Positions 2,509 to 44,009 of a stretch of 64,000 nt of DNA are shown here, one piece after another. The stretch is taken from NCBI GenBank assembly GCA_031179305.1, contig JAPSHX010000002.1:1-64000 (forward strand), written 5' to 3'. Below the pieces are notes generated by a model. It had not been told where the DNA came from, ran no database searches, and saw nothing but the letters and a program-made list of their open reading frames with translations. The first letter of the stretch is position 1; every line of letters begins with the position of its first letter. The position numbers were made by a program, and so were the translations under genes. The DNA comes from Paenarthrobacter sp. Its GTDB lineage: Bacteria > Actinomycetota > Actinomycetes > Actinomycetales > Micrococcaceae.

Positions 2509-5315
2509 TTGACTACTTTCGTTGCAATCGGAATCCAGCAAATTACGGCCAGCAGACCGGCCAGCCCGGCCCAAAGAGCCGCGTAGGGAGCCAGAAGCAG
2601 TCCCAGCCCCAGGGCACCAAGGACGCCCAAGGGAAGTGCCACTGTGCCCACAAGTGCGTTTTCGAAGAAGCGGACCTGGCCCAGCATGTCCGGGTTCCAG
2701 CCCATGGCTCGCAGGGTACCGAGGTACTCCCGCTTGGCATGGAGCTCGAAGCGGCCCGTGACCAAGGTCAGGAGGAGGCCAACAACCACACCGAACACAG
2801 CGAGGATAACGCTCGGCAAGGCAATGCTGGCGGCGGCCAGACCACTCAAAGCGCTGGCACCGGCTGCCCGGGGAATGTCGATCAGGAGTGCAATCAGTGC
2901 ACCCACTGCGGCACCGAACACACCCACTGCCACAGCCAGGGAGATCGAGTTGAAGCGGTTGGTGGTGAGCTGCCTGTTGGCGAACGTCAGGGGCGAATCA
3001 ACGGTCACCAGGCGTTCGTCGTGCTGCGGTTCCTGATCAATCACCACTCGGTGACGCAACTGCTGGGCGGCCAGCAGTGCAGCAGCGCTGTAGATGACCA
3101 GCATCGTGACCGAGACAATCACGGTGGCAACGTTCCAGCTCAACAAGCTGAGGATGACTCCCGCTGCGGCCAGGGCGGCAGCTCCCACGGCGAATTCTTC
3201 CAGGACCCAGGAGCGGATCCGTTTCTGGGTCCAACCCATGGCGCGGAGGATTCCGGCTTCGCTACGGCGTTGGCGGATGTAGCTGACTGTGGAAGCACCT
3301 GTCAGGAGAGTTGCACCAAGCAGCGTGAGGAACAGGAGGGTGATGTTGGTTCCGGTGAGGGAACCAGACACGGCATCGGCTGCGTCCTGCCGCACCCATG
3401 ACTGCTGGACTGTGCCCAAGGGTGATTCCTTGCCGGCGTCGTCCTTGCTGTAGCCGGGGACAAAGATGTTGGCATCTTCGCGGGCGGAACCCGCCACGAC
3501 GGTAGCCTCAAGGCCGAGCTCGCGGATCTGGGTGGCCAGCTTCTCCACCTCAGGCTGCGCCGTCTTCCAGTTTCCGGTTGCTGACGCCTTGACACGGATA
3601 GCATCAATGACGTCCGCGTTGGTGTCATAACCACGCGCAGCTGCCAGACCGTAATAATCGGTGATGGCGCCGGCGGACTGGCTGACCAAACCTGTGGCAC
3701 TCAGCGAAGGCTTCAGTTCAGTGCCCTCAACCTCTTTGCCCTCAGCGTCCTTGGTGAGAGTCATCGGTGTGGGGTCGTAGCCGCCCAAGGGCAGCTTGTT
3801 GACATCCCCGGCAGCTGACTTCACGGCGGCAGGGTCGAAGGTGCCATACACCATGGGCAACGGCGTGGCCGGCTTCTTGCCTGTTTCCAGGTCTTCCCGG
3901 TAGGAGCGCTCCTCAACCGGCTTACGCTGCGTCTGGTCCACGGGCGCCCCGAAGGACGACTTCTCCGGCAGACGGTTCACAGTTACCCAGTCCCCCGGTG
4001 TGGCGCTCTTATCCGACGCGCCGTTGGAGGCTTCGTCGCCGTCCTTGTACTGGGGTGCTGCGGCAAATGCAGTGCTCCACGTGGCCGGGTTGTACAGACC
4101 CTGGCTGAAGGAGGCGGTGCTGCCCAGCAATTTGCTGTGATCGGTTGACCCGGGCCATTCGAGGGCGAACGGGGACTTGGACACGAACGGCAGGTAGTCC
4201 TTGTCCAGGGAACGCGTTACGGTGCCCACCTCGTTGACCACCTTTCCGCTTGCGTCGAGTTCCTCAATCTTCACCGAGTACTGCAGGTCAAGGGATGTGC
4301 CTGAGCGGACAATCAGCGGAATGGCCTGGGAGTCATCCGTCAGCAGGCCCTCACGCTTGGCCTGCTGATACTGCGTCATCAGCGGCGCCCAGTGCTTGAG
4401 CTTGACGCCCAGGAAATCGGGCCCTTCTTCCAGCTGGTCCATGCTGAGGCCGGTGGTGAAGAGACTCTCGAAATGGCGTCCGATAGCGCCCGCGTCACGG
4501 GCATCCGCCGGAGGAGCCTTCTCCAGGGGTGCCAGGAAATCTCCTGCTGAGCCCAGCAGCGCCCGCTCAGAGGCCGGGTCGACGGCGACGACGGACTCTG
4601 TCACCTCAGGCGCCAGGGGCAGCGCCACTGAGAGATTGAAGAGATTGTGCTCCGAGCCCAGGGCCGGGGCCGGGAACTTGACGCCTGTCTCGCCCTCAGG
4701 GCCGGCGATCCGAACGTTGGTGCCGCCCGCAGTCTGTTCCTGGATCAGGCGGCCTTTGCCCAAGGTGCCTTCAGCGCTGGTTTTGAAAAGGGTCTTCTCA
4801 TTAGCTCCGTCCGAGCTCGTGGCCGAGGCGGTCAGGCGGTACTTCTTGGGGGAATCAGGCAGTACGGATTCCGCGGCAGGCCACTTGCTGGAATCCATGG
4901 CGGATGGATCCCCGGCCGTCACCGCGCCGGCAAGGCCCGAGTTATAGCCCAGGTAGTCCATGGCGTTGAGCCGCGGAGCCTCAAGGTTCTGCGATACACG
5001 CGAGACCAGGCTGATGGGTGCGGCCACGGCAGTTTGGCCCATGGTCCGGATCTTCTCCAGCTGCTCAAAGCTGATACCGCCCTGGCCGTTGGCGATTTCC
5101 GGCTGAATCAATGCACCGCCGTCGCCATCTTGTGAGTGGTCAGGCCTTGCCTGGACCAGGATGTCGTAGAGTCCCCGCGAGTTCTCGTCCACTGTCCTGT
5201 TCAGAGCCGCCTGCGACTGGCTCTGTACAAGGACGGACAAGCACATGGCGACGATCAAAATGGCCGCGGTCAGCAGCAGCACACGGCTTCTGATGAACCT
5301 TTGGACGGCGTTCAT
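2505..5315 (-). CDS. FtsX/MacB-type ABC permease with very large extracellular domain
   Basis: Permease of 936 residues. One N-terminal membrane segment (about 11-33) is followed by roughly 600 residues predicted outside the cell, rich in Ser, Asp and Gly. About seven hydrophobic segments follow from residue 650 on. Two FtsX-type cytoplasmic turns are visible, each with an (I/T)LRAMGW motif, so the C-terminal part is a duplicated FtsX unit. The start at 5315 has AGGGAG just upstream; the open frame extends 14 codons further without a good ribosome site. It is cotranscribed with the ATPase through an ATGA overlap. Such pairs export or sort peptides, lipids or lipoproteins; the actual substrate is unknown. 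Confidence 0.88.
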   Translation of the reverse strand: MNAVQRFIRSRVLLLTAAILIVAMCLSVLVQSQSQAALNRTVDENSRGLYDILVQARPDHSQDGDGGALIQPEIANGQGGISFEQLEKIRTMGQTAVAAPISLVSRVSQNLEAPRLNAMDYLGYNSGLAGAVTAGDPSAMDSSKWPAAESVLPDSPKKYRLTASATSSDGANEKTLFKTSAEGTLGKGRLIQEQTAGGTNVRIAGPEGETGVKFPAPALGSEHNLFNLSVALPLAPEVTESVVAVDPASERALLGSAGDFLAPLEKAPPADARDAGAIGRHFESLFTTGLSMDQLEEGPDFLGVKLKHWAPLMTQYQQAKREGLLTDDSQAIPLIVRSGTSLDLQYSVKIEELDASGKVVNEVGTVTRSLDKDYLPFVSKSPFALEWPGSTDHSKLLGSTASFSQGLYNPATWSTAFAAAPQYKDGDEASNGASDKSATPGDWVTVNRLPEKSSFGAPVDQTQRKPVEERSYREDLETGKKPATPLPMVYGTFDPAAVKSAAGDVNKLPLGGYDPTPMTLTKDAEGKEVEGTELKPSLSATGLVSQSAGAITDYYGLAAARGYDTNADVIDAIRVKASATGNWKTAQPEVEKLATQIRELGLEATVVAGSAREDANIFVPGYSKDDAGKESPLGTVQQSWVRQDAADAVSGSLTGTNITLLFLTLLGATLLTGASTVSYIRQRRSEAGILRAMGWTQKRIRSWVLEEFAVGAAALAAAGVILSLLSWNVATVIVSVTMLVIYSAAALLAAQQLRHRVVIDQEPQHDERLVTVDSPLTFANRQLTTNRFNSISLAVAVGVFGAAVGALIALLIDIPRAAGASALSGLAAASIALPSVILAVFGVVVGLLLTLVTGRFELHAKREYLGTLRAMGWNPDMLGQVRFFENALVGTVALPLGVLGALGLGLLLAPYAALWAGLAGLLAVICWIPIATKVVK

Positions 5316-5401
5316 TGGGCTCCCTGAGACCTTGATTGCGGGCGCGCACACATGCACCGTGACTCCTCAAAAGACACAGAGGAAGACCGGGCTGTATGTG
5401 C

Positions 5402-5468
5402 AAAAAGTTGTGGCCGGCCTGCTGCCGGGTCCGAATCCCGGACCCAGCCATTGTAAGCAGACCGGCCA
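5402..5468 (-). terminator. Probable intrinsic terminator after serA
   Basis: A 13-bp stem (5411-5423 with 5456-5468, one G-U pair) encloses a second perfect 7-bp hairpin (5427-5433 with 5439-5445). In the minus-strand transcript it is followed, a few nucleotides on, by five U residues (5402-5406). It sits between the serA stop and the start of the ABC permease, as a serA terminator should. Confidence 0.7.
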
Positions 5469-5524
5469 CTCCTGCGTGCCATGGTGTGTCGCCGGCACGC
5501 GAACCTAACTGATGAAGATCAGTG

Positions 5525-7120
5525 CTAGTCCTCCAGGTCCACTTCCCGAACCATCTCTGCGCCGATACCGGCTTTGATGGCTTCCAGCACCTGTTGCGGA
5601 ACAGAGCTGTCGACAGTCAGGAGTGCAAGAACCTGGCCGCCTTCGGTCTGGCGTGCAACCTGCATCCCGCCGATGTTGATGTTGTTCATGCCCAAAATGT
5701 GTCCAATGGTGCCAATCACGCCCGGACGGTCGGCGTAGGCCACAACAACCAAGTGCTCACTGATGGGGATTTCGACGTCGTATCCGTTGACGCCTACAAG
5801 CTTCTCCACCTGCTTGGGACCTGTGAGGGTACCGGCAACGGAGATCTGCGAACCATCGCTGAGGGCGCCACGGATGGTCAAGACATTTCGGTAATCCTCG
5901 GCGTCCGGGGTGGTGATCAGCCGGGTGTTGATGCCACGCTGTTCTGCGATGACCGGAGCGTTTACGTAGGAGACCTGCTCCGTGACCACATCAGCGAAGA
6001 CGCCCTTCAGTGCGGCCAGTTCGAGCACCTTGACATCCAGCGCGGCAATTTCGCCGGCCACCTCAACGTCGATCTGGGTCAGGGATGCGTGGGTCAGGGA
6101 AGTGAAGATCCGGCCCAGCTTTTCGATCAGCGGGATGCCCGGACGAACGTCCGGGGCGATGACGCCTCCTGCAACGTTCACGGCATCGGGAACCAGTTCG
6201 CCTGCAAGGGCAAGGCGAACCGACTTGGCCACTGACACGCCCGCCTTCTCCTGGGCCTCATCCGTGGACGCACCGAGGTGGGGGGTAACAACTACGTTGT
6301 CGAGTTCGAAGAACGGCAGGTCAGTGCTGGGTTCCTTCACGAAAACGTCGACGCCGGCGCCCGCGATCTGGCCTTCCTTGAGGGCGGTGTAGAGGGCTTC
6401 TTCGTCCACCAGGCCACCACGCGCCACGTTGATGACATAAGCCGATTCCTTCATCTTCCGGAAGGCATCAGCGCCCAGCATGCCTACCGTCTCCGGTGTC
6501 TTGGGCATGTGAATGGTGATGAAGTCGGCGTTTTCCAACAGCTCGTCCAAGGTGACAAGCTTGACGCCCAACTGGGCGGCGCGTGCAGCCGTGATGTAGG
6601 GGTCATAGGCGAGGATCTCAGTTTCGAAGCCCTGCAGGCGTGCTGCCACCAGGGCGCCGATCCGGCCCAGGCCGATGATTCCGATCTTCTTCTCGAAGAG
6701 TTCAATGCCGGTATACTTCGAGCGCTTCCACTCGCCGTTTTTCAGCGCCGAGCTGGCCTGCGGAATGTGGCGGGCGAGGCTCAGGATGTGGCCCACAGTG
6801 AGCTCTGCGGCAGAAACGATATTGGACGTCGGGGCGTTGACCACCATGACGCCTGCCTGCGTTGCGGACTTGATGTCCACATTGTCCAGCCCCACGCCTG
6901 CACGGGCGATGACCTTGAGGTTCTTGGCCGCAGCGATGGCTTCGGCATCCACTTGGGTGGCCGAACGCACCAGGATGGCGTCGACGTCTGCAATGGCGGA
7001 CAGCAGCTGGGAACGGTCGGCGCCGTCGGTCTGTCGGATCTCAAAGTCCGGGCCCAATGCCTCGACTGTTGCGGGCGAAAGTTCCTCGGCGAGGAGGACG
7101 ACGGGTTTGCTGACTGACAC
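5525..7120 (-). CDS. serA: D-3-phosphoglycerate dehydrogenase
   Basis: NAD-dependent oxidation of 3-phosphoglycerate to 3-phosphohydroxypyruvate, the first step of serine synthesis. The protein has the 2-hydroxyacid dehydrogenase fold with the Rossmann motif GLGRIG near residue 150, the catalytic Arg in VARGGLVDE and the catalytic His in TPHLGAST. After these come an intervening allosteric substrate-binding domain and a C-terminal ACT domain that in relatives binds serine. At 531 residues it matches the long mycobacterial form. GTG at 7120 is chosen because AAGG lies 8-12 nt upstream and the protein then begins directly at the substrate-binding domain; the open frame upstream of it has no family similarity. 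It is transcribed alone between two terminators. Confidence 0.96.
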   Translation of the reverse strand: MSVSKPVVLLAEELSPATVEALGPDFEIRQTDGADRSQLLSAIADVDAILVRSATQVDAEAIAAAKNLKVIARAGVGLDNVDIKSATQAGVMVVNAPTSNIVSAAELTVGHILSLARHIPQASSALKNGEWKRSKYTGIELFEKKIGIIGLGRIGALVAARLQGFETEILAYDPYITAARAAQLGVKLVTLDELLENADFITIHMPKTPETVGMLGADAFRKMKESAYVINVARGGLVDEEALYTALKEGQIAGAGVDVFVKEPSTDLPFFELDNVVVTPHLGASTDEAQEKAGVSVAKSVRLALAGELVPDAVNVAGGVIAPDVRPGIPLIEKLGRIFTSLTHASLTQIDVEVAGEIAALDVKVLELAALKGVFADVVTEQVSYVNAPVIAEQRGINTRLITTPDAEDYRNVLTIRGALSDGSQISVAGTLTGPKQVEKLVGVNGYDVEIPISEHLVVVAYADRPGVIGTIGHILGMNNINIGGMQVARQTEGGQVLALLTVDSSVPQQVLEAIKAGIGAEMVREVDLED

Positions 7121-33586: not shown

Positions 33587-34465
33587 TCAGTTCTGTGTGG
33601 CTTTGAGTTCGATGTCGAGGCCGAGGTCGAGCGCGCTTACGCTGTGCGTCAGGCCTCCGATGGAGATGACGTCCACGCCCGTCGAAGCGATTTCGGTGAC
33701 AGTGTTGATGTTCACGTTGCCGCTCGCTTCCACGATAGCCCGCCCGTCCACCTGCTTGACACCGGCCCGGAGCTCGTCGACGGAGAAGTTGTCCAGCATG
33801 ATGGTGTCCACGCCGGCCGCCAGCACCGGCTCAATCTGCTCGGCCCTGTCCACTTCAACTTCGAAGTGGGTGGTGTGGCCCAGCTGGGCTTTGGCGGCAA
33901 CCAGCAATTCGGTCAGCTTGCTGGAGTCGCCTCCGGTCATGACGGCCAGGTGGTTGTCCTTGGCCAGAACGGCATCGGAAAGGCTGTAGCGGTGGTTCGC
34001 TCCCCCACCGCAGCGCACGGCGTAACGTTCCAGGACACGAAGGCCGGGCGTGGTCTTGCGGGTATCAGTGATCCGCGCTCGCGTCCCTTCCACGAGCTTT
34101 ACGAATTCTGCGGTCTTGGTGGCGATGGCACTCATCCGCTGCACCAGGTTCAGGCCCACCCTTTCGGCAAGCAGCACTGAGCGGGCCCTGCCACTGACCC
34201 GCGCGAGGTGGGTTCCGGCGTCGAACACTTCTCCATCAGCGAGCAGCAGCTCAACCTCGGTGTCCGGGTCCACAAGCTTCATGGCATCGCGGAAAACCGT
34301 ACCGCCGCTGAAGACACCGGGGACGCGCGCATTCAGCACGGCATCCGCCCGGGCGTCGGCGGGGATCAGCAGTTGTGAGGTGATGTCGCCGCTGGGTGCA
34401 TCCTCCGCGAATGCCCGTTCCAGGATGTCCCGGACGGGGGCTGCGGGGAGGGTCAGGTTAGTCAT
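33587..34465 (-). CDS. nadC: Nicotinate-nucleotide pyrophosphorylase (quinolinate PRTase)
   Basis: Third step of de novo NAD synthesis: quinolinate plus PRPP to nicotinate mononucleotide and CO2. The type II PRTase barrel is recognisable: TDTRKTTPGLRVLERYAVRCGGG binds quinolinate, and HFEVEVDRAEQIEPVLAAGVDTIMLDN and EASGNVNINTV form the phosphoribosyl site. 292 residues, the normal length. Its start overlaps the end of nadB by 8 nt, so translation is probably coupled. Confidence 0.96.
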   Translation of the reverse strand: MTNLTLPAAPVRDILERAFAEDAPSGDITSQLLIPADARADAVLNARVPGVFSGGTVFRDAMKLVDPDTEVELLLADGEVFDAGTHLARVSGRARSVLLAERVGLNLVQRMSAIATKTAEFVKLVEGTRARITDTRKTTPGLRVLERYAVRCGGGANHRYSLSDAVLAKDNHLAVMTGGDSSKLTELLVAAKAQLGHTTHFEVEVDRAEQIEPVLAAGVDTIMLDNFSVDELRAGVKQVDGRAIVEASGNVNINTVTEIASTGVDVISIGGLTHSVSALDLGLDIELKATQN

Positions 34466-36347
34466 GGACGAGGCTCGCTTTCCGGCTCATGGTGTAACGC
34501 TTGTCAAAATCCTCGACGGCGGGTGGTTCTTTCACGCCGTCACTGCGGTAATGCGCCCCCAGCGACTCCCGCCGCTCGCGGGCAGCGTGGACGAGCAACT
34601 GTGCCGCCAACAGCAGGTTGGAATCCTCATGCTCCCGGACATCAAGGGAATCCGGCACATTCAGCGGCATAACATCACCCGCCCAAGCAGCCAAAGAGAC
34701 ACCAGCCTCTCGAAGCAGGCCGCCATGACGCAAAACCCCGGCCTTTGCAGTCATCAACCGCCGCAAAGCCCCCCGCGAAAACACCCCCGCCTGCCCAAAG
34801 GACGTCTCACGAACACCCGGCCCGGGCAAAGACTCAAACTCCCAAGAAACAGGACCCGGCACAGGATCCATTTCCAAGACCGAACCCAATAGCGGCGCCG
34901 GAGGCCCCGACAGCCGACGTCCGCTGTCAACAAACGGTAGTTCCGGAGGTCCCGACAGCGCCGTTGTCGCGTGAGAGCTGGCGTTTTGGTGGTCGGCTGG
35001 CGGGGTCCCGGCAGCGTGCGTAAAAGCGAGGCCGCCCGCGGCCGAGTTAGCACGCAGAGGGACTCCGTTAGTCGACCCGAGGAACCCCTCAACAGCCCGC
35101 CGCCCGAAAACGAGACCTTCCAGCAGGGAGTTGCTCGCCAGCCGGTTGGCACCTTGGACTCCGGTACAGGCAACCTCGCCGGCTGCCAGCAATCCGGGAA
35201 CAGATGTCCGGCCGTGAAGGTCTGTGACCACGCCGCCCATCCAGTAGTGGGCTGCGGGTGCTACGGGAACAAGTTGCCGGGTCCAGTCGACACCGGCTTG
35301 GCGCGTCCGTTTGCTGAGGGTGGGAAACCGCTTCGCCAGGAAGCCTTGCCCGCGCTGTTCTTCGATCACGGTGGCGTCGAGGAAAACGTGGCCGTTGGGG
35401 TCGCCGAGTTTTGCCAGATGCAGGGCGATGCTGCGGGAGACGACGTCCCGGGGCGCTAGTTCTGCATCAGGGTGATAGTCAGGCATGAACCGGTGCCCGT
35501 TGGCGTCGATCAGGACGGCACCTTCGCCCCGCACTGCTTCGGAGATCAGCAGGGGGTCTGTGTTCCCTTCTGCTTCCCTGGCCGCAGCCGGGATCACCAT
35601 GCACGTGGGGTGGAACTGGAAGAATTCAAGGTCCGCAACGGCGGCTCCTACACGCCATGCGAGCGCCAAACCATCCGCTGTGGCAACCGCAGGATTGGTG
35701 GTTTGGGCAAAAAGCTGCCCGGCTCCGCCCGTGGCGAGCAGGACGGAGTCGCCGTGGACGCCGAGGTGGCGTCCGTCGTGGAGGAAATTCGCTCCCACGA
35801 CGCGGCCGCCCTGCGGCCCGCCCAGCGAGAGCGATGTGACTTGGGCGTGCCCGATGACCTGGATCTTGCCTGCGGCTTGGAAATCCAGGACTGTCATGAT
35901 CAGCGCGGCCGCCACCCCGGCACCGGTGGCATCGCCGCCGGCGTGCAGGATCCGCGGAGCTGAGTGGGCAGCTTCGAGACCCAAGGCGGGGTCGCCGTCG
36001 TCGTCGAGGTCGAACTGCACGCCGAACCGTCCCAGCCCCGCGATGTCCAACCGCGCCTCGGTACACAACACCTGTACAGCTTCTTCGTTGCAGTGGCCTG
36101 CCCCGGCTTTGAGGGTGTCAGCGATGTGCGCAGCCACCGTGTCACCGGGGGCCGGCTCGTCCAACACGGCGGAGATCCCACCCTGGGCGTAGTAGGTGTT
36201 GCTGTCGGCAAGCGCACCCTTGGTCAGCAGCACCACTTCCGCGCCGGCTTCCGCAGCAAGCAGCGCGGAGTACAGTCCTGCGATTCCGCTTCCGACGACG
36301 ATCAACCGCTTGGGGGCAGGCCCTCCAGCAACGCTCGCTGTAGTCAT
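34458..36347 (-). CDS. nadB: L-aspartate oxidase
   Basis: FAD enzyme that oxidises L-aspartate to iminoaspartate, the substrate of NadA. FAD-binding VVGSGIAGLYSALLAAE lies at the N-terminus; the capping domain has FHPTCM and ISEAVRGEGAVL; GVQGANRLASNSLLEGLVFGRRA closes the flavin domain. At 629 residues it is about 90 longer than usual. The extra part (about 425-515) is a Pro/Ser/Gly-rich insertion between the flavin domain and the C-terminal three-helix domain, with a repeated SGPP motif. From about residue 495 to the end the codons shift to G/T third positions, unlike the rest of the operon. It starts 70 nt after the nadA stop. Confidence 0.95.
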   Translation of the reverse strand: MTTASVAGGPAPKRLIVVGSGIAGLYSALLAAEAGAEVVLLTKGALADSNTYYAQGGISAVLDEPAPGDTVAAHIADTLKAGAGHCNEEAVQVLCTEARLDIAGLGRFGVQFDLDDDGDPALGLEAAHSAPRILHAGGDATGAGVAAALIMTVLDFQAAGKIQVIGHAQVTSLSLGGPQGGRVVGANFLHDGRHLGVHGDSVLLATGGAGQLFAQTTNPAVATADGLALAWRVGAAVADLEFFQFHPTCMVIPAAAREAEGNTDPLLISEAVRGEGAVLIDANGHRFMPDYHPDAELAPRDVVSRSIALHLAKLGDPNGHVFLDATVIEEQRGQGFLAKRFPTLSKRTRQAGVDWTRQLVPVAPAAHYWMGGVVTDLHGRTSVPGLLAAGEVACTGVQGANRLASNSLLEGLVFGRRAVEGFLGSTNGVPLRANSAAGGLAFTHAAGTPPADHQNASSHATTALSGPPELPFVDSGRRLSGPPAPLLGSVLEMDPVPGPVSWEFESLPGPGVRETSFGQAGVFSRGALRRLMTAKAGVLRHGGLLREAGVSLAAWAGDVMPLNVPDSLDVREHEDSNLLLAAQLLVHAARERRESLGAHYRSDGVKEPPAVEDFDKRYTMSRKASLVHD

Positions 36348-36417
36348 GTGAGGCTCGATTCGGCTAGTCCGGTGTGAAGTGCCTGTTTAGGTGTGCTGGT
36401 TGGGTGTGCCGGCTTGC

Positions 36418-37725
36418 TTAGGCAGGCTTGGCTGCCAGCATGCGCTCCAGCGCAATCTTGGCGTTTTCCTGCACGGAGTCGTCCACAGTAATGCGGTTGA
36501 CGATGCGTCCTTCCACGAGTTCCTCCAAGACCCAGGCGAGGTAGCCGGGGTGGATGCGGTACATGGTGGAGCACGGGCAAATCACGGGATCGAGGCAGAA
36601 GATGGTGTGCTGCGGGTTTTCGGCGGCGAGCCGGTTCACCATGTTGATCTCGGTACCGATGGCGAACGTGGTGGGTTCGGTGGCGGCGGCGATGGCCTTC
36701 TTGATGAAGTCGGTGGAACCGGCGGAGTCTGCGGCGTCCACTACCTCCATGGGGCACTCAGGGTGGACGATCACGTTGACGCCCGGGAAGTCCACACGGG
36801 CTTTTTCGATCTGGCCCACATTGAAGCGCTTGTGCACTGAGCAGAAACCGTGCCACAGGATGACGCGGGAGTCCAACAGCGCTTGTTCGTCGTAGCCGCC
36901 GAGTTCCTTGCGCGGGTTCCACATGGGCATCTGTTCAAGCGGGACGCCCAGTGCCTTGGCGGTGTTGCGGCCCAAGTGCTGATCGGGGAAGAACAGGACC
37001 CGCTGACCGCGCTCGAAGGCCCATTCCAGGACCACTTTGGCGTTGGACGAGGTGCAGACAATCCCGCCATTCCTTCCACAGAACGCTTTTAGCGCAGCCG
37101 AAGAGTTCATGTACGTGACGGGGATAACGGGTACCCGGCCTGATGCGTCCGGCTCGGTACCGAAGATCTCCTCGAGCTGCTCCCAGCATTCCTCCACAGA
37201 GTCTTCATCTGCCATGTCCGCCATGGAGCAGCCCGCAGCGAGGTTCGGCAGGATCACTGCCTGTTCAGGCGTTGAGAGGATGTCCGCTGTTTCGGCCATG
37301 AAGTGGACCCCGCAGAAGATGATTGCTTCGGCGTCGGGCTTGGTCAGTGCGGCGTTGGCCAGCTGGAACGAGTCGCCGACGAAGTCTGCGTATTGGATGA
37401 CTTCGTCGCGCTGGTAGAAGTGGCCCAGAATGACTGCGCGGTCCCCGAGTGTCGCTTTGGCGGCCCGGATGCGGGCGTCAAGTTCGGCGTCGGTGGCTTT
37501 CTTGTACTCTTCCGGCAGCTGGCCTTGGCGCGGCGTGGCCTTGGGCGCAACGTCGTCGCTTGAGGCGCCTGGGCCGTACGCGGGCTCACCAGCGAGGGAC
37601 TCGGCAAGGTCGTACTCCCATGGGCCCCTGGCCAAGGCCGGGCTGCACGTGGACCCTGCGCGGGAGAGGCCCTTCTCGGCTTCTTCGCGAGTGATCAGCT
37701 GGACGGCAGTGTTGACGCTGCTCAT
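36418..37725 (-). CDS. nadA: Quinolinate synthase A
   Basis: [4Fe-4S] enzyme that condenses iminoaspartate with dihydroxyacetone phosphate to quinolinate. Candidate cluster and active-site cysteines are in IIFCGVHFMAETAD, WHGFCSVHKRF and VICPCSTMYRIHP. An extra N-terminal region of about 80 residues precedes the core, as in other long actinobacterial NadA proteins. The start ATG overlaps the TGA of the upstream NrtR-like gene (ATGA), so the regulator and nadA are translated from one message. Confidence 0.96.
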   Translation of the reverse strand: MSSVNTAVQLITREEAEKGLSRAGSTCSPALARGPWEYDLAESLAGEPAYGPGASSDDVAPKATPRQGQLPEEYKKATDAELDARIRAAKATLGDRAVILGHFYQRDEVIQYADFVGDSFQLANAALTKPDAEAIIFCGVHFMAETADILSTPEQAVILPNLAAGCSMADMADEDSVEECWEQLEEIFGTEPDASGRVPVIPVTYMNSSAALKAFCGRNGGIVCTSSNAKVVLEWAFERGQRVLFFPDQHLGRNTAKALGVPLEQMPMWNPRKELGGYDEQALLDSRVILWHGFCSVHKRFNVGQIEKARVDFPGVNVIVHPECPMEVVDAADSAGSTDFIKKAIAAATEPTTFAIGTEINMVNRLAAENPQHTIFCLDPVICPCSTMYRIHPGYLAWVLEELVEGRIVNRITVDDSVQENAKIALERMLAAKPA

Positions 37726-38432
37726 GGTGTACTCCTGTTATCTGGCCCGAGGCCGGGCGTGCCGGTGAAGCGGTAGAGGCGTGGTGGGCGGTGTTTTCCG
37801 CCTTGGAGGTATTCACCGGTTTCTTCGATTTCCGGTGTTGCCTTGACGTGCCTGCGGAAGTTTGCGGGATCGAGCTGTCGGTCCAGCACGGCCTCGTAGA
37901 CTTCGCGGACTTGGGCGAGCGTGAAGAACTCTCCCAGCAGGTGGTACGCGATGGACCCGTAAGCCATCTTGTTGCGGAGCCGCCACAGGGCGTAGTCCAC
38001 GATTGCGTTGTGGTCAAAGGCCAGCTCGCCGAGCCGGTCTGCCCGGAACCAGCGCACATTCTCGGATTCGTCAGCGAGGGCGGCCTCGGTGGGTTGGACC
38101 AAAGCCCAGTACACGATGGACACGACCCGCTGGGTGGGTGACCTGTGGAGGCCGCCGAAAGCGTAGAGCTGTTCAAGGTAGTGCGGAGTGAGTCCCGTGG
38201 TCTCCCGAAGGTTCCGCGACGCTGCGTCCTGCAGCGATTCGTCGTGGGCCAATGGCCCGCCGGGGAGCGCCCACATGTCTTTGTAAGGCTCGCGGATGCG
38301 GCGGACCAGTGGTAGCCACAGCGTGGGACGCCCGGATTTTTCGCTGGGGCGGAGTGCGAAGATCACCGTTGAAATAGCCAACGACGGCGGCGCGAGACGC
38401 CGCTCGGCGACGTTTGCTGAGCTGGTATTCAC
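37722..38432 (-). CDS. nrtR: NrtR-type Nudix-related transcriptional regulator of NAD synthesis
   Basis: A 236-residue protein with an N-terminal Nudix-fold domain and a C-terminal winged-helix domain (LLGEFFTLAQVREVYEAVL, DPANFRRHVK), the NrtR/NiaQ arrangement in which the Nudix domain senses ADP-ribose or related NAD metabolites. The Nudix box (GGPLAHDESLQDAASRNLRETTGL region) has Asn and Thr where the catalytic REUXEE glutamates should be, consistent with a sensor that no longer hydrolyses. GTG at 38432 is preferred because GAGG lies 8 nt upstream; a GTG three codons earlier is possible. It heads the nad operon and sits 53 bp downstream of a 31-bp palindrome. Confidence 0.87.
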   Translation of the reverse strand: MNTSSANVAERRLAPPSLAISTVIFALRPSEKSGRPTLWLPLVRRIREPYKDMWALPGGPLAHDESLQDAASRNLRETTGLTPHYLEQLYAFGGLHRSPTQRVVSIVYWALVQPTEAALADESENVRWFRADRLGELAFDHNAIVDYALWRLRNKMAYGSIAYHLLGEFFTLAQVREVYEAVLDRQLDPANFRRHVKATPEIEETGEYLQGGKHRPPRLYRFTGTPGLGPDNRSTP

Positions 38433-38484
38433 GGCGTTCACCTCGCTTCATCGCCGTCCCGAACGCTCCTCGTAGAGCGGGAGT

Positions 38485-38552: not shown

Positions 38553-39026
38553 TCACACCTGCTTCACGGCCGCCTCCAGCAGCGGCAAGGTACGCCCTTG
38601 AATATGGCTGTTCAGGACAATGACCGACGAGCACCGGACTACAGACTTGGTGGCGATCATGGCATCGAGCACGCGCTGCATATCCGGGTTGGACCGAGCC
38701 GCGATCCTGACCATGAGGTCGGAGTTTCCCGTGACCGTGTGGACCTCAATAATTTCCGGGATGGCACTCAGGCTTTCAATGATGGCGTCGTGGCCAATCT
38801 CCTGCGTGATGGTCACCGAGCAAAAGGCCACCACCGGAAATCCGAAATTGGCCGGGTCCGGCTGCGGAACCCAGGAGCCAATGACCCCACTCTCAATCAT
38901 TCGGTCAATCCGGGACTGCACCGTCGCCCTGGCAACCCTGAGCACACGGGAGGCCTCCAGCACTGAGGATCGCGGTGAATCAGTGAAGAAACGTACAATT
39001 TTTGCATCAAGCGCATCGACCAGCAT
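38553..39026 (-). CDS. Lrp/AsnC-family transcriptional regulator
   Basis: A 157-residue regulator with an N-terminal helix-turn-helix (SVLEASRVLRVARATVQSRIDRMIESGVI) and a C-terminal RAM ligand-binding domain (VHTVTGNSDLMVRIAARS). ATG at 39026 has AGGAAC just upstream; the TTG one codon earlier is less likely. It is divergent from an amino-acid permease with 174 bp between starts, the usual arrangement for an Lrp-type regulator and its transporter target. A 6-bp dyad CATCAC/GTGATG (39056-39061, 39078-39083) lies between, too weak to call an operator. Confidence 0.92.
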   Translation of the reverse strand: MLVDALDAKIVRFFTDSPRSSVLEASRVLRVARATVQSRIDRMIESGVIGSWVPQPDPANFGFPVVAFCSVTITQEIGHDAIIESLSAIPEIIEVHTVTGNSDLMVRIAARSNPDMQRVLDAMIATKSVVRCSSVIVLNSHIQGRTLPLLEAAVKQV

Positions 39027-39200
39027 CAAAGTTCCTGTCCCCGGGGATCCGTACCCATCACATCGCTACAGCAAAAAGTGATGTATCTTACAAACTGCGA
39101 GAATTATTCCACGGCTCTTGCTGCGTCGTCGACGCCTGCGTGCCAAGCCCAAGAGGCCAGCACGCCAAACCAGCATGTAATCCATAGAAGGTAGACACGT

Positions 39201-40586
39201 ATGACAACGAAGTCCATCGCGGCTCCCGCCCCAACAACCGGCCTCGGACATTCACTCAAACCTCGCCAGCTCACCATGATGGGACTCGGAAGTGCAATCG
39301 GCGCAGGTCTCTTCCTCGGCTCAGGAGCGGGGGTCCAGGCCGCCGGTCCGGCAGTGCTTGTTTCCTACCTCGTCGCCGGAACGCTGATCATCCTGGTCAT
39401 GTGGGCCCTCGGCGAGATGGCAGCCGCCAACCCGAACAGCGGCGCGTTCTCCGTGTACGCAGAGAAAGCCATGGGCAAGACCGCCGGCGGAACCATCGGC
39501 TGGCTGTGGTGGCTTCAGCTGGTGGTGGTCATTGCCGCCGAAGCCATCGGAGCGGCCGGACTGCTGTTCTCCATCTGGCCTGTCATCCCCGTTTGGGTCC
39601 TTGCGCTGGTCTTCATGGTGGTCTTCACGGGTATCAACCTGGTAGGCGTCCGCAACTTCGGTGAGTTCGAATTCTGGTTCGCCATCCTCAAGGTGGCCGC
39701 CATTGTCATCTTCCTGCTGATCGGCGCAGCCCTGCTGTTCGGTTGGCTGCCAAACGTCCCCTCCCCCGGATTCTCCGCTTTCGGCGACTTTGCCCCCAAC
39801 GGCATCGGTGGCATCGCCGCCGCCTTGTTCGTAGTGATCTTCGCGTTCGGTGGAACCGAGATCGTCAGCGTTGCCGCTGCCGAAACCGAAAACCCCGCCC
39901 ACAGCGTGGGCAAGGCCATCCGCACGGTGGTCTGGCGCATCCTGGTCTTCTACATCGGCTCCGTGTTTGTCATCGCAGCGGTTCTTCCCGTGGGCTCGGA
40001 GGGACTGAAGTCCCCGTTCGCCGGCGTGCTGGACCTCGCGGGAATCCCCGGCGCAGGCGCAGCCATCACCCTGGTCGCGGTCGTCGCCCTGCTGTCCGCC
40101 CTCAACGCCAACCTCTACGGCGCCTCACGCATGATTTTCTCCCTCTCGGAGCGCGGGGAAGCTCCCCGCTTCCTGTCCCGCCTCAGCGTCTCAAAGGTTC
40201 CGGTTGCCGCCGTCGGAATTTCGGTTGCCTTCGGCTTTGTCGCCACGGTCCTTGAATTGCTGTTTCCGGAGAAGATCCTGCCGGCGTTGCTGAACCTCGT
40301 GGGCTCCACCTGCCTGGTGGTCTGGGGTACCGCACTGGTTTCGCAGTTCATCCTGCGCCGCAGGGCGGATCGCGACGGCACGGAGCTGCCACTGCGCATG
40401 AAGGGATTCCCCTTCCTCACGATCGTCGGCCTCGTCCTGCTGGGCCTTATCCTGGTGGTCGGCTTGGCCAACCCGGAAAGTGCCGGACAGCTGATCGGAA
40501 CGTTCATCCTGATCCTGGTCATAGCCGCCGGTTGCTTCATCAACGCTAAGTCCAAGGCTGCCAAACACTCCACATACGCCGAGTAA
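39201..40586 (+). CDS. Amino acid permease (APC superfamily, AAT family)
   Basis: A 461-residue transporter with about 12 TMs. The first TM has the substrate-binding GSAIGAGLFLGSGAGVQAAGP motif of the AAT family (GabP, AroP, LysP). SLSERGEAPRFLSRLSVSKVP is the conserved cytoplasmic loop. An amino acid/proton symporter is expected; the exact substrate is not deducible. Probably controlled by the divergent Lrp/AsnC protein. Confidence 0.92.
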   Translation: MTTKSIAAPAPTTGLGHSLKPRQLTMMGLGSAIGAGLFLGSGAGVQAAGPAVLVSYLVAGTLIILVMWALGEMAAANPNSGAFSVYAEKAMGKTAGGTIGWLWWLQLVVVIAAEAIGAAGLLFSIWPVIPVWVLALVFMVVFTGINLVGVRNFGEFEFWFAILKVAAIVIFLLIGAALLFGWLPNVPSPGFSAFGDFAPNGIGGIAAALFVVIFAFGGTEIVSVAAAETENPAHSVGKAIRTVVWRILVFYIGSVFVIAAVLPVGSEGLKSPFAGVLDLAGIPGAGAAITLVAVVALLSALNANLYGASRMIFSLSERGEAPRFLSRLSVSKVPVAAVGISVAFGFVATVLELLFPEKILPALLNLVGSTCLVVWGTALVSQFILRRRADRDGTELPLRMKGFPFLTIVGLVLLGLILVVGLANPESAGQLIGTFILILVIAAGCFINAKSKAAKHSTYAE

Positions 40587-40602: not shown

Positions 40603-40650
40603 GCACAGAAGCCCTGCGCAGTTTGTACTGTGCGGGGCTTCTTTGTGTGT
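40603..40650 (+). terminator. Intrinsic terminator after the amino acid permease
   Basis: A long stem of about 18 bp with a few mismatches (40603-40621 with 40628-40647, core AGAAGCCC/GGGCTTCT), 6-nt loop, ending in TTTGTG. It isolates the permease from the dehydrogenase operon that follows. Confidence 0.75.
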
Positions 40651-40724: not shown

Positions 40725-41777
40725 ATGACGACAAATCCTGTGCTGGCCGCCGTCGATGATGACGCGGCCACGCTCACCCACCAGCAACTACGTGAGCTGT
40801 ACACCCTGATGGCAGCCGTCCGGCACCTTGACTCCTCAGCCGTGGCCTGGCAGCGCCAAGGGATCATCCCGGGCTACGCGCCGGAACTCGGCCAGGAGGC
40901 CGCGCAGGTGGGCAGCGGCTACGCCGTTGACCGGACCAGGGACTTCGTATTCCCCACCTACCGCGAGATGGGCGTTGCCCGGGCAATGGGCCTGGACATG
41001 GTGGGCTACATGTCCACGCACAAGGCCACGTGGCACGGCGGCATGTACAACCCGTTGGAGTCCCGGTTCGCACCCATCCAGGCCGTGGTGGCGGGGTCAG
41101 TGTTGCACGCTGTTGGCTGGGCCCACGGCCAGACCCTGGAAGGCCACGCTACGGGTGAAACGGGCGTAGCCATGACGTACTTCGGCGACGGCGCCTCCTC
41201 CCAGGGCGATGTCCACGAAGCCATGAACTTCGCCGCAGTCATGAAGGCCCCTGTGGTCTTCTTCATCCAGAACAACGGCTGGGCCATTTCCGTACCCACG
41301 GAACGCCAGGTTGCCGGCGGCTCCGTCGCAGCTCGCGCCGCAGGCTACGGAATCCCGTCCTTGCAAGTGGACGGCAACGACGTGGTGGCAGTCTACGAAG
41401 CCACTCGTTCCGCTTTCGCGCACTGCCGGGCGGGCAACGGACCCGTGGTCATCGAGGCCATGACCTACCGCCGCGGTCCGCACTCCACCGCGGACGATCC
41501 CGGCCGTTATCGCACGCTGGAGGAGGAACGCCTCGACGCCGGGGAGGATCCGCTGGAGCAGTTCAAGCAGCAACTCCTCACCGAAGGAGTGGCCGACGAG
41601 GCCTTCTTCGCGGAGGCGCAACGCTTGGCCGAAGAAGAGGAAGAAGCCGTCCGGGCAGGCATAGCGGACCTGGGTCCAAGGCCCGGTGCCGAAATGTTCA
41701 GCCTGGTCTTCCAGGAACCAACGCCAGCCCTTCAAGCCCAAGCCACCACGTGGCGCGAGGAGTCCGAACATGCCTGA
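40725..41777 (+). CDS. 2-oxo acid dehydrogenase E1 alpha subunit
   Basis: Thiamine-diphosphate E1 alpha subunit, 350 residues, of a branched-chain 2-oxo acid, pyruvate or acetoin dehydrogenase. The ThDP/Mg motif runs from FGDGASSQGDVHEAMNFAA to IQNNGWAIS. The phosphorylation-loop equivalent TYRRGPHSTADDPGRYR is of the branched-chain type. ATG at 40725 has AGGG upstream and is preferred over a GTG six codons earlier. Its stop overlaps the E1 beta start by 8 nt. First gene of a four-gene operon. Confidence 0.92.
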   Translation: MTTNPVLAAVDDDAATLTHQQLRELYTLMAAVRHLDSSAVAWQRQGIIPGYAPELGQEAAQVGSGYAVDRTRDFVFPTYREMGVARAMGLDMVGYMSTHKATWHGGMYNPLESRFAPIQAVVAGSVLHAVGWAHGQTLEGHATGETGVAMTYFGDGASSQGDVHEAMNFAAVMKAPVVFFIQNNGWAISVPTERQVAGGSVAARAAGYGIPSLQVDGNDVVAVYEATRSAFAHCRAGNGPVVIEAMTYRRGPHSTADDPGRYRTLEEERLDAGEDPLEQFKQQLLTEGVADEAFFAEAQRLAEEEEEAVRAGIADLGPRPGAEMFSLVFQEPTPALQAQATTWREESEHA

Positions 41778-42855
41778 GACCATCACCGATCTGCGAATCA
41801 CGGCCAACAGCATGGACACCCCTGCAGCAGGCGTTGAACAGCTGTCCATGCAGCAAGCACTCAACCGCGCACTCGACGAGATCCTGGCTGAGAACCCCAA
41901 GACCGTCATTTTTGGCGAGGACTGCGGAAGGCTGGGCGGCGTCTTCCGCATCACCGACGGCCTCCAAGCGAAACACGGAGAGGCACGCGTCTTCGACACC
42001 CCGCTTGCCGAGTCCGGCATCCTGGGCATGTCTGTGGGCCTGGCCATGGCGGGCTTCCACCCCATCCCGGAAGTGCAGTTCGATGGTTTCGCCTACCCGG
42101 CCATCAACCAGATCGTCTGCCAAATCGCGCGGATGAACTACCGCAGCCGCGGCACCCTGCCCATGCCCATCACGTTGCGCGTGCCCAGCTTCGGCGGCAT
42201 CCGCGCGCCCGAACACCACGGCGAGTCCCTGGAGGCGCTCTTCGCGCACGTCCCCGGGCTCAAGGTGGTCTCCCCCTCCAACCCGCACGACGCCTACCAT
42301 CTGCTGAAGTACGCTGCCACCCGGCTGGACCCGGTGATCTTCATGGAGCCCAAGTCACGCTACTGGCAAAAGGGTCCGGTGGATGTCACCACGGCTGTTC
42401 CCGGTGAGGCAACACACGACGGCGACACATCCAGCGGCGGCAGCCTCACCGGCTCCCGCGTGGCCAGGGAAGGCCGTCACCTCACGCTCGTTGCCTGGGG
42501 CGCCATGGTCTCCCGCTGCCTGCAGGTTGCTGAGTTGGCGGCCGAGGACGGCATCGACGTCGAAGTCCTGGACCTCCGCTGGCTAAAACCCATTGACGCA
42601 GAAGCCCTGGCGAAGTCCGTCGGGAAGACGCGCCGCGCCGTCGTCGTCCACGAAGCGCCGCTGACGTCGGGCTTGGGCGCCGAGGTGGCCCAACTCATCA
42701 CCCAGAGCTGCTTCGCAACGCTCAAGGCGCCGGTTGAACGAGTGACCGGCTTCGACGTGCCCTACCCCTCCGGAGACCTGGAGGACGAATACATCCCCAA
42801 CATCGACCGCATCCTCTTTGGGATCCAACGCGTACTGGAGTACCGCCGTGGCTGA
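41770..42855 (+). CDS. 2-oxo acid dehydrogenase E1 beta subunit
   Basis: E1 beta subunit, 361 residues, forming the alpha2beta2 decarboxylase with the preceding gene. Transketolase pyrimidine-binding domain features are EDCGRLGGVFRIT, FDTPLAESGILGMSVGLAMAG and EVQFDGFAYPAINQI; the C-terminal domain has LRWLKPIDAEAL and VHEAPLTSGLGAEVA. The first 25 residues precede the conserved core. It overlaps both neighbours by 8 nt, indicating tight translational coupling. Confidence 0.93.
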   Translation: MPETITDLRITANSMDTPAAGVEQLSMQQALNRALDEILAENPKTVIFGEDCGRLGGVFRITDGLQAKHGEARVFDTPLAESGILGMSVGLAMAGFHPIPEVQFDGFAYPAINQIVCQIARMNYRSRGTLPMPITLRVPSFGGIRAPEHHGESLEALFAHVPGLKVVSPSNPHDAYHLLKYAATRLDPVIFMEPKSRYWQKGPVDVTTAVPGEATHDGDTSSGGSLTGSRVAREGRHLTLVAWGAMVSRCLQVAELAAEDGIDVEVLDLRWLKPIDAEALAKSVGKTRRAVVVHEAPLTSGLGAEVAQLITQSCFATLKAPVERVTGFDVPYPSGDLEDEYIPNIDRILFGIQRVLEYRRG

Positions 42856-43177
42856 AATTTCCTTCCCGCTCCCCGACCTCGGTGAGGGCCTCATTGAGGC
42901 AACCGTGCTGGACTGGCTGGTGGAGCCCGGTCAGCAGGTGGAACGCAACCAACCGATCGTAGAGCTGGAAACCACAAAATCGGCCCTCGAATTGCCGAGC
43001 CCACAGGCGGGTAAAGTGGTGCGTATTCACGGGGCGCCCGGTGACACGATCAACGTAGGCGAGCCGCTGATTGTGTTCGAGGTTCCGGATGACACCGCCG
43101 GGATCGTGGGCACTGTTCCCAAGGACGAAGCACCCAAGCGCCGGGTCCGCCTGAGCGCCGTACTCGATGAGGACTGA
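42848..43177 (+). CDS. Free-standing lipoyl-domain protein (E2 without acyltransferase domain)
   Basis: A 109-residue protein that is little more than one lipoyl domain. ISFPLPDLGEGLIEATVLDW opens the domain, the lipoylated lysine is in ELETTKSALELPSP, and the barrel closes at VGEPLIVFEV. About 25 charged residues follow and the frame stops; no peripheral-subunit-binding or acyltransferase domain is present. GTG at 42848 overlaps the E1 beta stop by 8 nt. Its position directly after E1 alpha and beta shows it is the acceptor of the E1 reaction. It would need another protein to transfer the acyl group; the next gene encodes an alpha/beta hydrolase. Confidence 0.9.
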   Translation: MAEISFPLPDLGEGLIEATVLDWLVEPGQQVERNQPIVELETTKSALELPSPQAGKVVRIHGAPGDTINVGEPLIVFEVPDDTAGIVGTVPKDEAPKRRVRLSAVLDED

Positions 43178-43178
43178 C

Positions 43179-44009
43179 ATGATGACCGGCAGGCACACCA
43201 TGGAACAGCACAGGCACACGGTAGAGGGAACGGACCCCGGGCTGTTCGTGGAAGTTCATGAGCCGGCCACCGACGCCGGCCTGCGCCCTGTCCTGCTGAT
43301 CCACGGCTTCTCTTCCTCCACGAAACTGAACTGGGTGGACAGCGGGTGGATCACCACGCTTCAGGATGCCGGCCGCCGGGTCATCACCGTTGACCTGCCA
43401 GGTCATGGCCGGAGCCATTCCCCCGAGGACCTGGATTCGTACACGCCCAGCCGCATCCGCGCTGACCTTCTCCAAATAGTGACCGACGCCGGCGCCCGGC
43501 CCTTGCGCGACGGCGACCCGTCCACGGGACTCGACGTCATTGGCTACTCGCTCGGTTCGCGGCTGGCGTGGGAATTTGGCGCCACCCAGGCGGACTTGGT
43601 TCACCGCATCGTCCTGGGCGGGCCGAGCTCGGCAGATCCGTTGGCAGCTTTCGACCTCGTTGCTGCCCAGCGGCACCTGGCAGACGGCACGCCCATTGAA
43701 GACGCGTCCACCGCCGGGCTCCTGAAGATGGCCCAGATGCTTCCAAGCAACAACTTGTTTGCCATGTTGTCGCTGATCGAGGCCATCAAGGGTGAGCCCT
43801 TTGATCCCGCGGAGGCCGCCCCGCACATGCCTCTGTTGCTCGTAGCCGGGAAGAAGGACGAACGGGCGGCCACCATGCCCGAGCTGGCCTCGATTGCGGG
43901 CAAACGTGGAGGCATGGTGGAGACTCTGGTAGTCCCGGGACGCACCCATACCAATGTGATCACCAGCCGGGCGTTCAAGGAAGCCGCCGTCGAATTCCTC
44001 GGAGTGTAG
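43179..44009 (+). CDS. Alpha/beta hydrolase cotranscribed with the lipoyl-domain protein
   Basis: Alpha/beta-hydrolase fold protein of 276 residues. The oxyanion loop is LIHGFSSSTKLNW, the nucleophile Ser is in DVIGYSLGSRLAW (GxSxG), the acid is probably in VAGKKDERA and the His is in VVPGRTHTNV. The start is set at 43179, one base after the lipoyl gene stop, with GAGG 6 nt upstream; ATG at 43182 is also possible. In acetoin dehydrogenase AcoC of pseudomonads a lipoyl domain and an alpha/beta-hydrolase domain form one chain of about 370 residues; here the two parts are separate genes. Confidence 0.88.
   Translation: MMTGRHTMEQHRHTVEGTDPGLFVEVHEPATDAGLRPVLLIHGFSSSTKLNWVDSGWITTLQDAGRRVITVDLPGHGRSHSPEDLDSYTPSRIRADLLQIVTDAGARPLRDGDPSTGLDVIGYSLGSRLAWEFGATQADLVHRIVLGGPSSADPLAAFDLVAAQRHLADGTPIEDASTAGLLKMAQMLPSNNLFAMLSLIEAIKGEPFDPAEAAPHMPLLLVAGKKDERAATMPELASIAGKRGGMVETLVVPGRTHTNVITSRAFKEAAVEFLGV

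Follow-up and report, generated by a model that had tools for sequence, protein, structure and literature searches.

A 2-oxo acid dehydrogenase module of Micrococcaceae with a free-standing lipoyl protein, an alpha/beta hydrolase and no linked E2 core

2-Oxo acid dehydrogenase complexes are textbook machines with an E2 core at their centre. In this study we focus on a four-gene operon on the plus strand of a 64,000-nucleotide stretch of Paenarthrobacter sp. DNA (assembly GCA_031179305.1, contig JAPSHX010000002.1, positions 1 to 64,000; hereafter the window). According to its open reading frames and Pfam matches, it encodes, in this order, the alpha and beta subunits of a predicted E1, a protein made of a lipoyl domain only and an alpha/beta hydrolase, and the E2 core is absent. 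The original prediction had described the same genes at the same coordinates, correctly; only the start of the hydrolase is refined here.

Genes of the operon and their products

The genes follow each other with two successive 8-base overlaps and then 1-4 bases ahead of the hydrolase, for which comparison with relatives favours the second ATG, at 43182. Features of the operon and of its upstream neighbours are collected in Table 1.

Table 1. Coordinates of the operon genes, of selected codons and of upstream features in the window.
Feature	Positions	Strand	Evidence or remark
E1 alpha, 350 aa, predicted thiamine diphosphate (ThDP)-dependent 2-oxo acid decarboxylase	40725-41777	+	Pfam E1_dh 268 bits
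E1 beta, 361 aa	41770-42855	+	Pfam Transket_pyr 142 bits, Transketolase_C 134 bits
Predicted free-standing lipoyl carrier, 109 aa, GTG start	42848-43177	+	Pfam Biotin_lipoyl 67 bits
Alpha/beta hydrolase, 276 aa from 43179, 275 aa from the ATG of relatives	43179/43182-44009	+	Abhydrolase_1 60 bits
Predicted lipoylated Lys44 codon (ETTKSA)	42977-42979	+	K44 invariant in 18 aligned proteins
Conserved tail of lipoyl protein, GIVGTVPKDEAPKRRVRL	43100-43153	+	I86, G88, V90 and R98-L102 invariant in 18 sequences
Nucleophile Ser123 codon (GYSLG)	43548-43550	+	Invariant in 15 aligned proteins; 80/80 loci
Triad Asp226 codon	43857-43859	+	Invariant in 15 aligned proteins; 80/80 loci
Triad His256 codon (RxH motif; Arg254 also conserved)	43947-43949	+	Invariant in 15 aligned proteins; 79/80 loci
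Lrp/AsnC-type regulator	38553-39029	-	Pfam AsnC_trans_reg 54 bits
APC-family amino acid permease	39201-40586	+	AA_permease 329 bits; terminator-like hairpin 3' of gene
Intrinsic-terminator-like hairpin between permease and E1 alpha	40607-40642	+	16-pair stem, T-rich tail

The E1_dh, Transket_pyr and Transketolase_C matches are those of the ThDP-type E1 of pyruvate dehydrogenase (PDH) and branched-chain 2-oxo acid dehydrogenase (BCKDH) complexes, and cofactor binding is predicted from the sequence. The best relatives of E1 alpha in the Protein Data Bank (PDB) are PDH and branched-chain E1 alpha, and the nearest of E1 beta are likewise PDH and branched-chain E1. The third gene product carries a lipoyl domain with a conserved lysine, as these complexes do. 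The E2 core and the subunit-binding domain that their operons encode are missing: Pfam finds neither a 2-oxoacid_dh nor an E3-binding domain in the operon, which bears out the earlier claim that no acyltransferase domain is present. Nor did tblastn with the genome's own three E2s as queries reveal an E2 core close to the module in relatives, over sets of 11 regions, 48 loci and 5 regions. The prediction had also remarked on the absence of E3, which is true of the operon but is no peculiarity: such an arrangement is ordinary, and one E3, scoring over the TIGR01350 cut-off, is encoded elsewhere in the genome (G000:C17:46096-47448). The same genome, which is 82.8% complete, carries four other E2-core genes elsewhere.

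Lys44, assigned by motif, is presumably the site of lipoylation of the small protein. Its AlphaFold2 model (mean predicted local distance difference test, pLDDT, of 77; range 37 to 77 in a run of five models) has strands to about residue 79 and is disordered from residue 86, the tail having a pLDDT under 50. We gathered 40 distinct lipoyl proteins without unknown residues, those listed being 108-110 residues long. In one alignment, judged by eye, the tail resembles the linker behind the lipoyl domain of the branched-chain-type E2s encoded by this genome, and a similar tail is found in the lipoyl proteins of a distant family. Because the tail is conserved and linker-like, the protein looks like a shortened front end of a branched-chain E2 from which the remainder is missing.

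The hydrolase is modelled with confidence as an alpha/beta-hydrolase fold (AlphaFold2, mean pLDDT 92), and the model, the Foldseek matches and the residues S123, D226 and H256 make it a predicted serine enzyme with a Ser-Asp-His triad. Foldseek matches are generic (lipases, esterases, haloperoxidases, MenH) and point to the fold and to no substrate; PDB sequence matches are weak and equally generic (a putative hydrolase, epoxide hydrolases, haloalkane dehalogenase and others). An identity as MenH was rejected, as the protein scores 48.0 bits against a TIGR03695 cut-off of 208.55 bits. It is 99% identical to its counterpart in Arthrobacter sp. M2012083.

The original prediction saw in the last two genes an AcoC broken into two polypeptides, or its unfused ancestor. 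That the chains are separate is now well established. Our survey covered 49 loci (L005-L053) from genus and family searches, that of the window included. The lipoyl gene adjoins the hydrolase in 39 loci, and in the other 10 there is no lipoyl gene at that place. In 38 of the 39 the lipoyl gene ends with a stop ahead of the hydrolase, none of these 38 being fused; the lipoyl gene of the 39th (L021) contains Ns. Thus the stop at 43175-43177 is real, and a single gene made two by a sequencing error is ruled out.

Conservation and loss of the module

Among 197 genomes of the family (Micrococcaceae), 65 have a strong full-length lipoyl match (counted as matches, not each read as a gene). In 63 of these a hydrolase match is found no more than 313 bases away on the same contig; in the remaining two the gene after the lipoyl gene is a weaker hydrolase match (33-34% identity). 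At the cut-offs used, 64 of the 197 have neither gene, though lipoyl-type matches are present there. In two small-genome relatives of genus g13 (L056, L057), the lipoyl-adjacent hydrolase is only about 33% identical, with a second hydrolase, also related, about 3 kb away at most.

Class-level sampling of 345 genomes added strong, tail-reaching lipoyl matches in 17 genomes, one from a second family of the order (f19) and 16 from a distant family (f35). All 17 of these loci have the order E1 beta, lipoyl-only gene, hydrolase, the hydrolase being 52% identical in f19 and 34-40% identical in the 16 f35 loci. Searching f35 with the hydrolase itself gave matches in 33 of 120 genomes; 30 loci were fetched, and the lipoyl gene and E1 beta precede the hydrolase in the 23 strongest but not in the 7 weaker ones. 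This second, weaker hydrolase group without the module comprises L217-L223, with a GntR-like regulator, recognised by eye, near L217. In a quick tree of 32 rows, 25 module E1 beta proteins form a single clade (SH-aLRT 98) apart from 7 E2-linked E1 beta proteins; moreover, the window E1 beta is 63-77% identical to its counterparts in other families and 47-49% to the genome's own E2-linked paralogues. Since E1 beta forms a clade of its own and the gene order recurs in Micrococcaceae, f19 and f35, the sequences indicate that the E1, lipoyl and hydrolase genes are a distinct conserved module and not a broken AcoC.

Searches of plasmids returned mostly ordinary E2s or unannotated places among the 60 of 352 records listed, together with 11 distant hydrolases. 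One hydrolase, 29% identical, lies on pSymB of Sinorhizobium meliloti (L107:4974-5753), surrounded by unrelated genes.

Among relatives of the window the module appears to have been lost repeatedly. We examined 80 named Arthrobacter-type loci taken from a hydrolase scan, so that presence of the hydrolase in all 80 is built in; as an unselected count, all 61 genus genomes have it. E1 beta and lipoyl matches are found in 48 of the 80 loci (one on a cut contig, and L155, L170 and L180 with lipoyl or E1 matches in pieces). L180, from Arthrobacter sp. Hiyo8, shows many frame breaks in the region, probably an assembly error. Of the 32 loci that lack E1, 9 retain a lipoyl gene, whole or in part, and 23 show no match to it at the protein level. 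In 21 of these 23, a fossil of the lipoyl 3' end upstream of the hydrolase beats all 200 shuffles, with a wide margin (score 57 or more) in 17, the reference including a few bases before the hydrolase start, so that conservation of the start region adds to the score; L144 and L145 show no such signal. A quick tree of neighbouring genes, built for 78 of the 80 loci without L169 and L180, whose genes are broken, requires at least 7 changes in the presence of the module, and starred branches enforce 6 of these; the tree does not tell gain from loss, and the changes are read as losses because of the fossils.

Throughout this series the hydrolase has largely kept its active site. Ser, Asp and His are retained in all 32 module-less loci; in module-bearing loci His is kept in 47 of 48, as is the neighbouring Arg. 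The median ratio of nonsynonymous to synonymous substitution rates (dN/dS) is 0.135 without and 0.120 with the module, low and alike, from pairs with dS of 0.05-0.8 (246 without; 335 with, L170 and L180 left out) that come from related genomes and are not independent. These values indicate that the hydrolase is under purifying selection even where E1 has been lost.

In L168 (about 4287-5993) loss of E1 left a single open frame that joins the permease gene to the 3' half of the lipoyl gene, with the lipoyl tail at its end. In L174 (5667-5993) a complete lipoyl-only gene persists without E1 alpha and E1 beta, and the Lrp match is in two pieces.

Presence of the Lrp-type gene tracks that of the module, the gene being found in 45 of the 48 loci that have it versus 2 of the 32 without E1. 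It is directly divergent from E1 alpha at L054-L057, L063 and L230. In five larger regions from outside the family (four of f35, one of f19), it lies upstream of E1 alpha on the opposite strand: it adjoins E1 alpha in f19, and is 0.8-1.0 kb away with 31-35% identity in all four f35 regions. No E2 or permease match was found in those five regions. An Lrp-type gene also stands beside the genome's own C9 operon, a likeness to branched-chain complexes. The permease is retained by most relatives that lack the module and is not beside the module in other families. The hairpin that separates it from E1 alpha in the window folds with a z-score of -7.2, terminator-like matches being as frequent in shuffled sequences. 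Further upstream (34458-38441) lie nadB, nadA and a Nudix gene, named by eye from their open reading frames, and the hydrolase remains near Nudix and NAD-biosynthesis genes in several module-less relatives.

How the lipoyl carrier may be unloaded

As the gene order is conserved in distant families without a linked E2 core, chance adjacency is unlikely, which suggests that hydrolase and acylated carrier act together. That the hydrolase survives where E1 and carrier are lost argues in turn for a role that is not confined to the module. An acyl-lipoyl thioesterase would fit best with both linkage and survival. We tentatively favour, with a confidence somewhat short of calling it probable, a 2-oxo acid dehydrogenase module that dispenses with the E2 core, in which the hydrolase would unload the lipoyl carrier and would also work outside the module. 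E1 alpha/beta would decarboxylate a 2-oxo acid whose source is probably an amino acid, since the module travels with an Lrp-type regulator, and would load the acyl group onto the free carrier. The Ser-Asp-His hydrolase would then free the dihydrolipoyl arm of its acyl group, most likely through hydrolysis that yields the free acid and less likely by passing the group to CoA, and the E3 encoded elsewhere would re-oxidise the carrier. The hydrolase may in addition serve other acyl-lipoyl or thioester substrates, hence its persistence once E1 and carrier are gone.

Known systems offer partial parallels. The E1 subunits and the lipoyl domain are of the branched-chain type, and the differences from a branched-chain complex lie in the hydrolase that takes the place of the E2 core, in the missing subunit-binding domain and in the separate E1 beta clade. 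The BCKD of Micrococcus luteus (Mlut_06800-06820) is described with two E1-E2 operons and one E2-E3 operon, no hydrolase being mentioned in the excerpt of that report (PMC5857589). Free-standing lipoyl carriers are known as the lipoate-binding proteins LbpA, where the partner is the Hdr-like sulfur-oxidising system and not an E1 (PMC6067878). An enzyme that cleaves acyl-lipoyl thioesters has been described only recently, in mitochondria: ABHD11, a serine enzyme of alpha/beta-hydrolase fold, removes glutaryl from the lipoyl arm of the E2 of the 2-oxoglutarate dehydrogenase complex (OGDHc; PMC12643935, published in 2025; earlier PMC7426941), an action on the lipoyl arm like that proposed here. 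ABHD11 is however a mitochondrial repair enzyme, likened to the present hydrolase by fold alone. No operon of the present kind was found described in the titles and abstract openings listed from the open PMC literature, which is weak evidence of novelty.

Several observations weigh against unloading by the hydrolase. It occurs without E1 in 32 of the 80 loci, and its main role may be unrelated to the module. A hydrolase match of at least 90 bits stands without a strong lipoyl match in 68 of the 197 family genomes, the weaker of which may be paralogues, and in Embleya and Sinorhizobium the relatives of the hydrolase are not part of an operon of this kind. The gap between lipoyl and hydrolase genes reaches tens to about 300 bases in several genera. 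Two of the 61 genus genomes (G042, G053) have a hydrolase match split in two, owing either to a broken gene or to an error of assembly. ABHD11 offers an analogy in fold and action, and its substrates are mainly glutaryl adducts. Finally, the four other resident E2-core genes could act in trans.

This last point leads to the main rival, which we nevertheless consider unlikely: another resident E2 core (of C9, C34 or C17) would unload the carrier to CoA, and the hydrolase would be a repair enzyme or unrelated. The genome does encode an E3 besides the four E2 cores, the lipoyl protein is like the N-terminal portion of a branched-chain E2, linker included, and persistence of the hydrolase without E1 agrees with such a division. 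Use of lipoyl groups in trans has moreover an actinobacterial precedent, in that OdhA depends on the lipoyl residues of AceF, although there an E2-E1 fusion lacks a lipoyl domain and here a lipoyl domain lacks an E2 (PMC10415282). However, the carrier of the window lacks the subunit-binding domain by which E1 or E3 could dock next to a core, and an E2 in trans does not account for the hydrolase gene found after the lipoyl gene in distant families.

Somewhat less probable is an AcoC-like acyltransferase, in which a hydrolase-fold chain of its own would move the acyl group from the carrier to CoA. AcoC fuses a lipoyl domain to an alpha/beta hydrolase, so that the same two domain types follow E1 alpha and E1 beta in both cases, without a classical E2 core; the linkage is conserved, and the NCBIfam name of the fused protein is acetoin dehydrogenase dihydrolipoyllysine-residue acetyltransferase subunit. 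The ancestry comparison took the NCBIfam model NF011457 as its only reference. Against its cut-off of 307 bits, the lipoyl protein reaches 51.3 bits and the hydrolase 37.9 bits, and each scores higher with other models (61 bits for the lipoyl protein with another E2 model, 48 bits for the hydrolase with MenH). Besides their low scores, the proteins differ from AcoC in being two chains, in the branched-chain-E2-like tail and in the retention of the hydrolase where E1 and lipoyl protein have been lost, so that it is more than one half of a divided enzyme; the E1, too, is nearest to PDH and branched-chain E1 among solved structures. A class-level search for AcoC at an E-value of 1e-60 gave 0 of 197 genomes, the positive controls being equally silent, and two Cupriavidus megaplasmids contain no protein over the AcoC cut-off. 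Thus, of the original proposal, the split, its conservation and the missing E2 core stand, whereas descent from AcoC does not follow from the scores: the likeness in plan is accepted, and membership is not supported.

We give still less credence to an ABHD11-like maintenance thioesterase that would clear dead-end acyl or other adducts from lipoyl groups throughout the cell and would not perform the productive step of the module. It would account for a hydrolase that is linked to lipoyl genes and is also kept where they were lost, as other lipoyl-bearing E2s remain, and ABHD11 is a precedent (PMC7426941, PMC12643935). Yet the 64 family genomes without both genes do contain lipoyl-type matches, and kinship with ABHD11 is one of analogy only. 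Last, an unrelated housekeeping esterase that is a mere chromosomal neighbour is very improbable: it stays beside the Nudix and NAD-biosynthesis genes in several module-less genomes, but the adjacency to the lipoyl gene recurs in f35, where none of those neighbours was found.

Unloading by the hydrolase would also admit a wider view, which we regard as doubtful: the module may represent an old, undescribed kind of 2-oxo acid dehydrogenase that makes free acids instead of acyl-CoA, with a diffusible carrier, a dedicated serine hydrolase and no E2 core, the hydrolase doubling as a general acyl-lipoyl thioesterase and bacterial counterpart of ABHD11. Whether replaced or outsourced, a missing core would alter which product, free acid or acyl-CoA, is assumed for these enzymes across many genomes of actinobacteria. 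Because E1 and carrier were lost stepwise while the hydrolase stayed, relatives provide a natural experiment on the role of the hydrolase, for which pairs of strains are ready.

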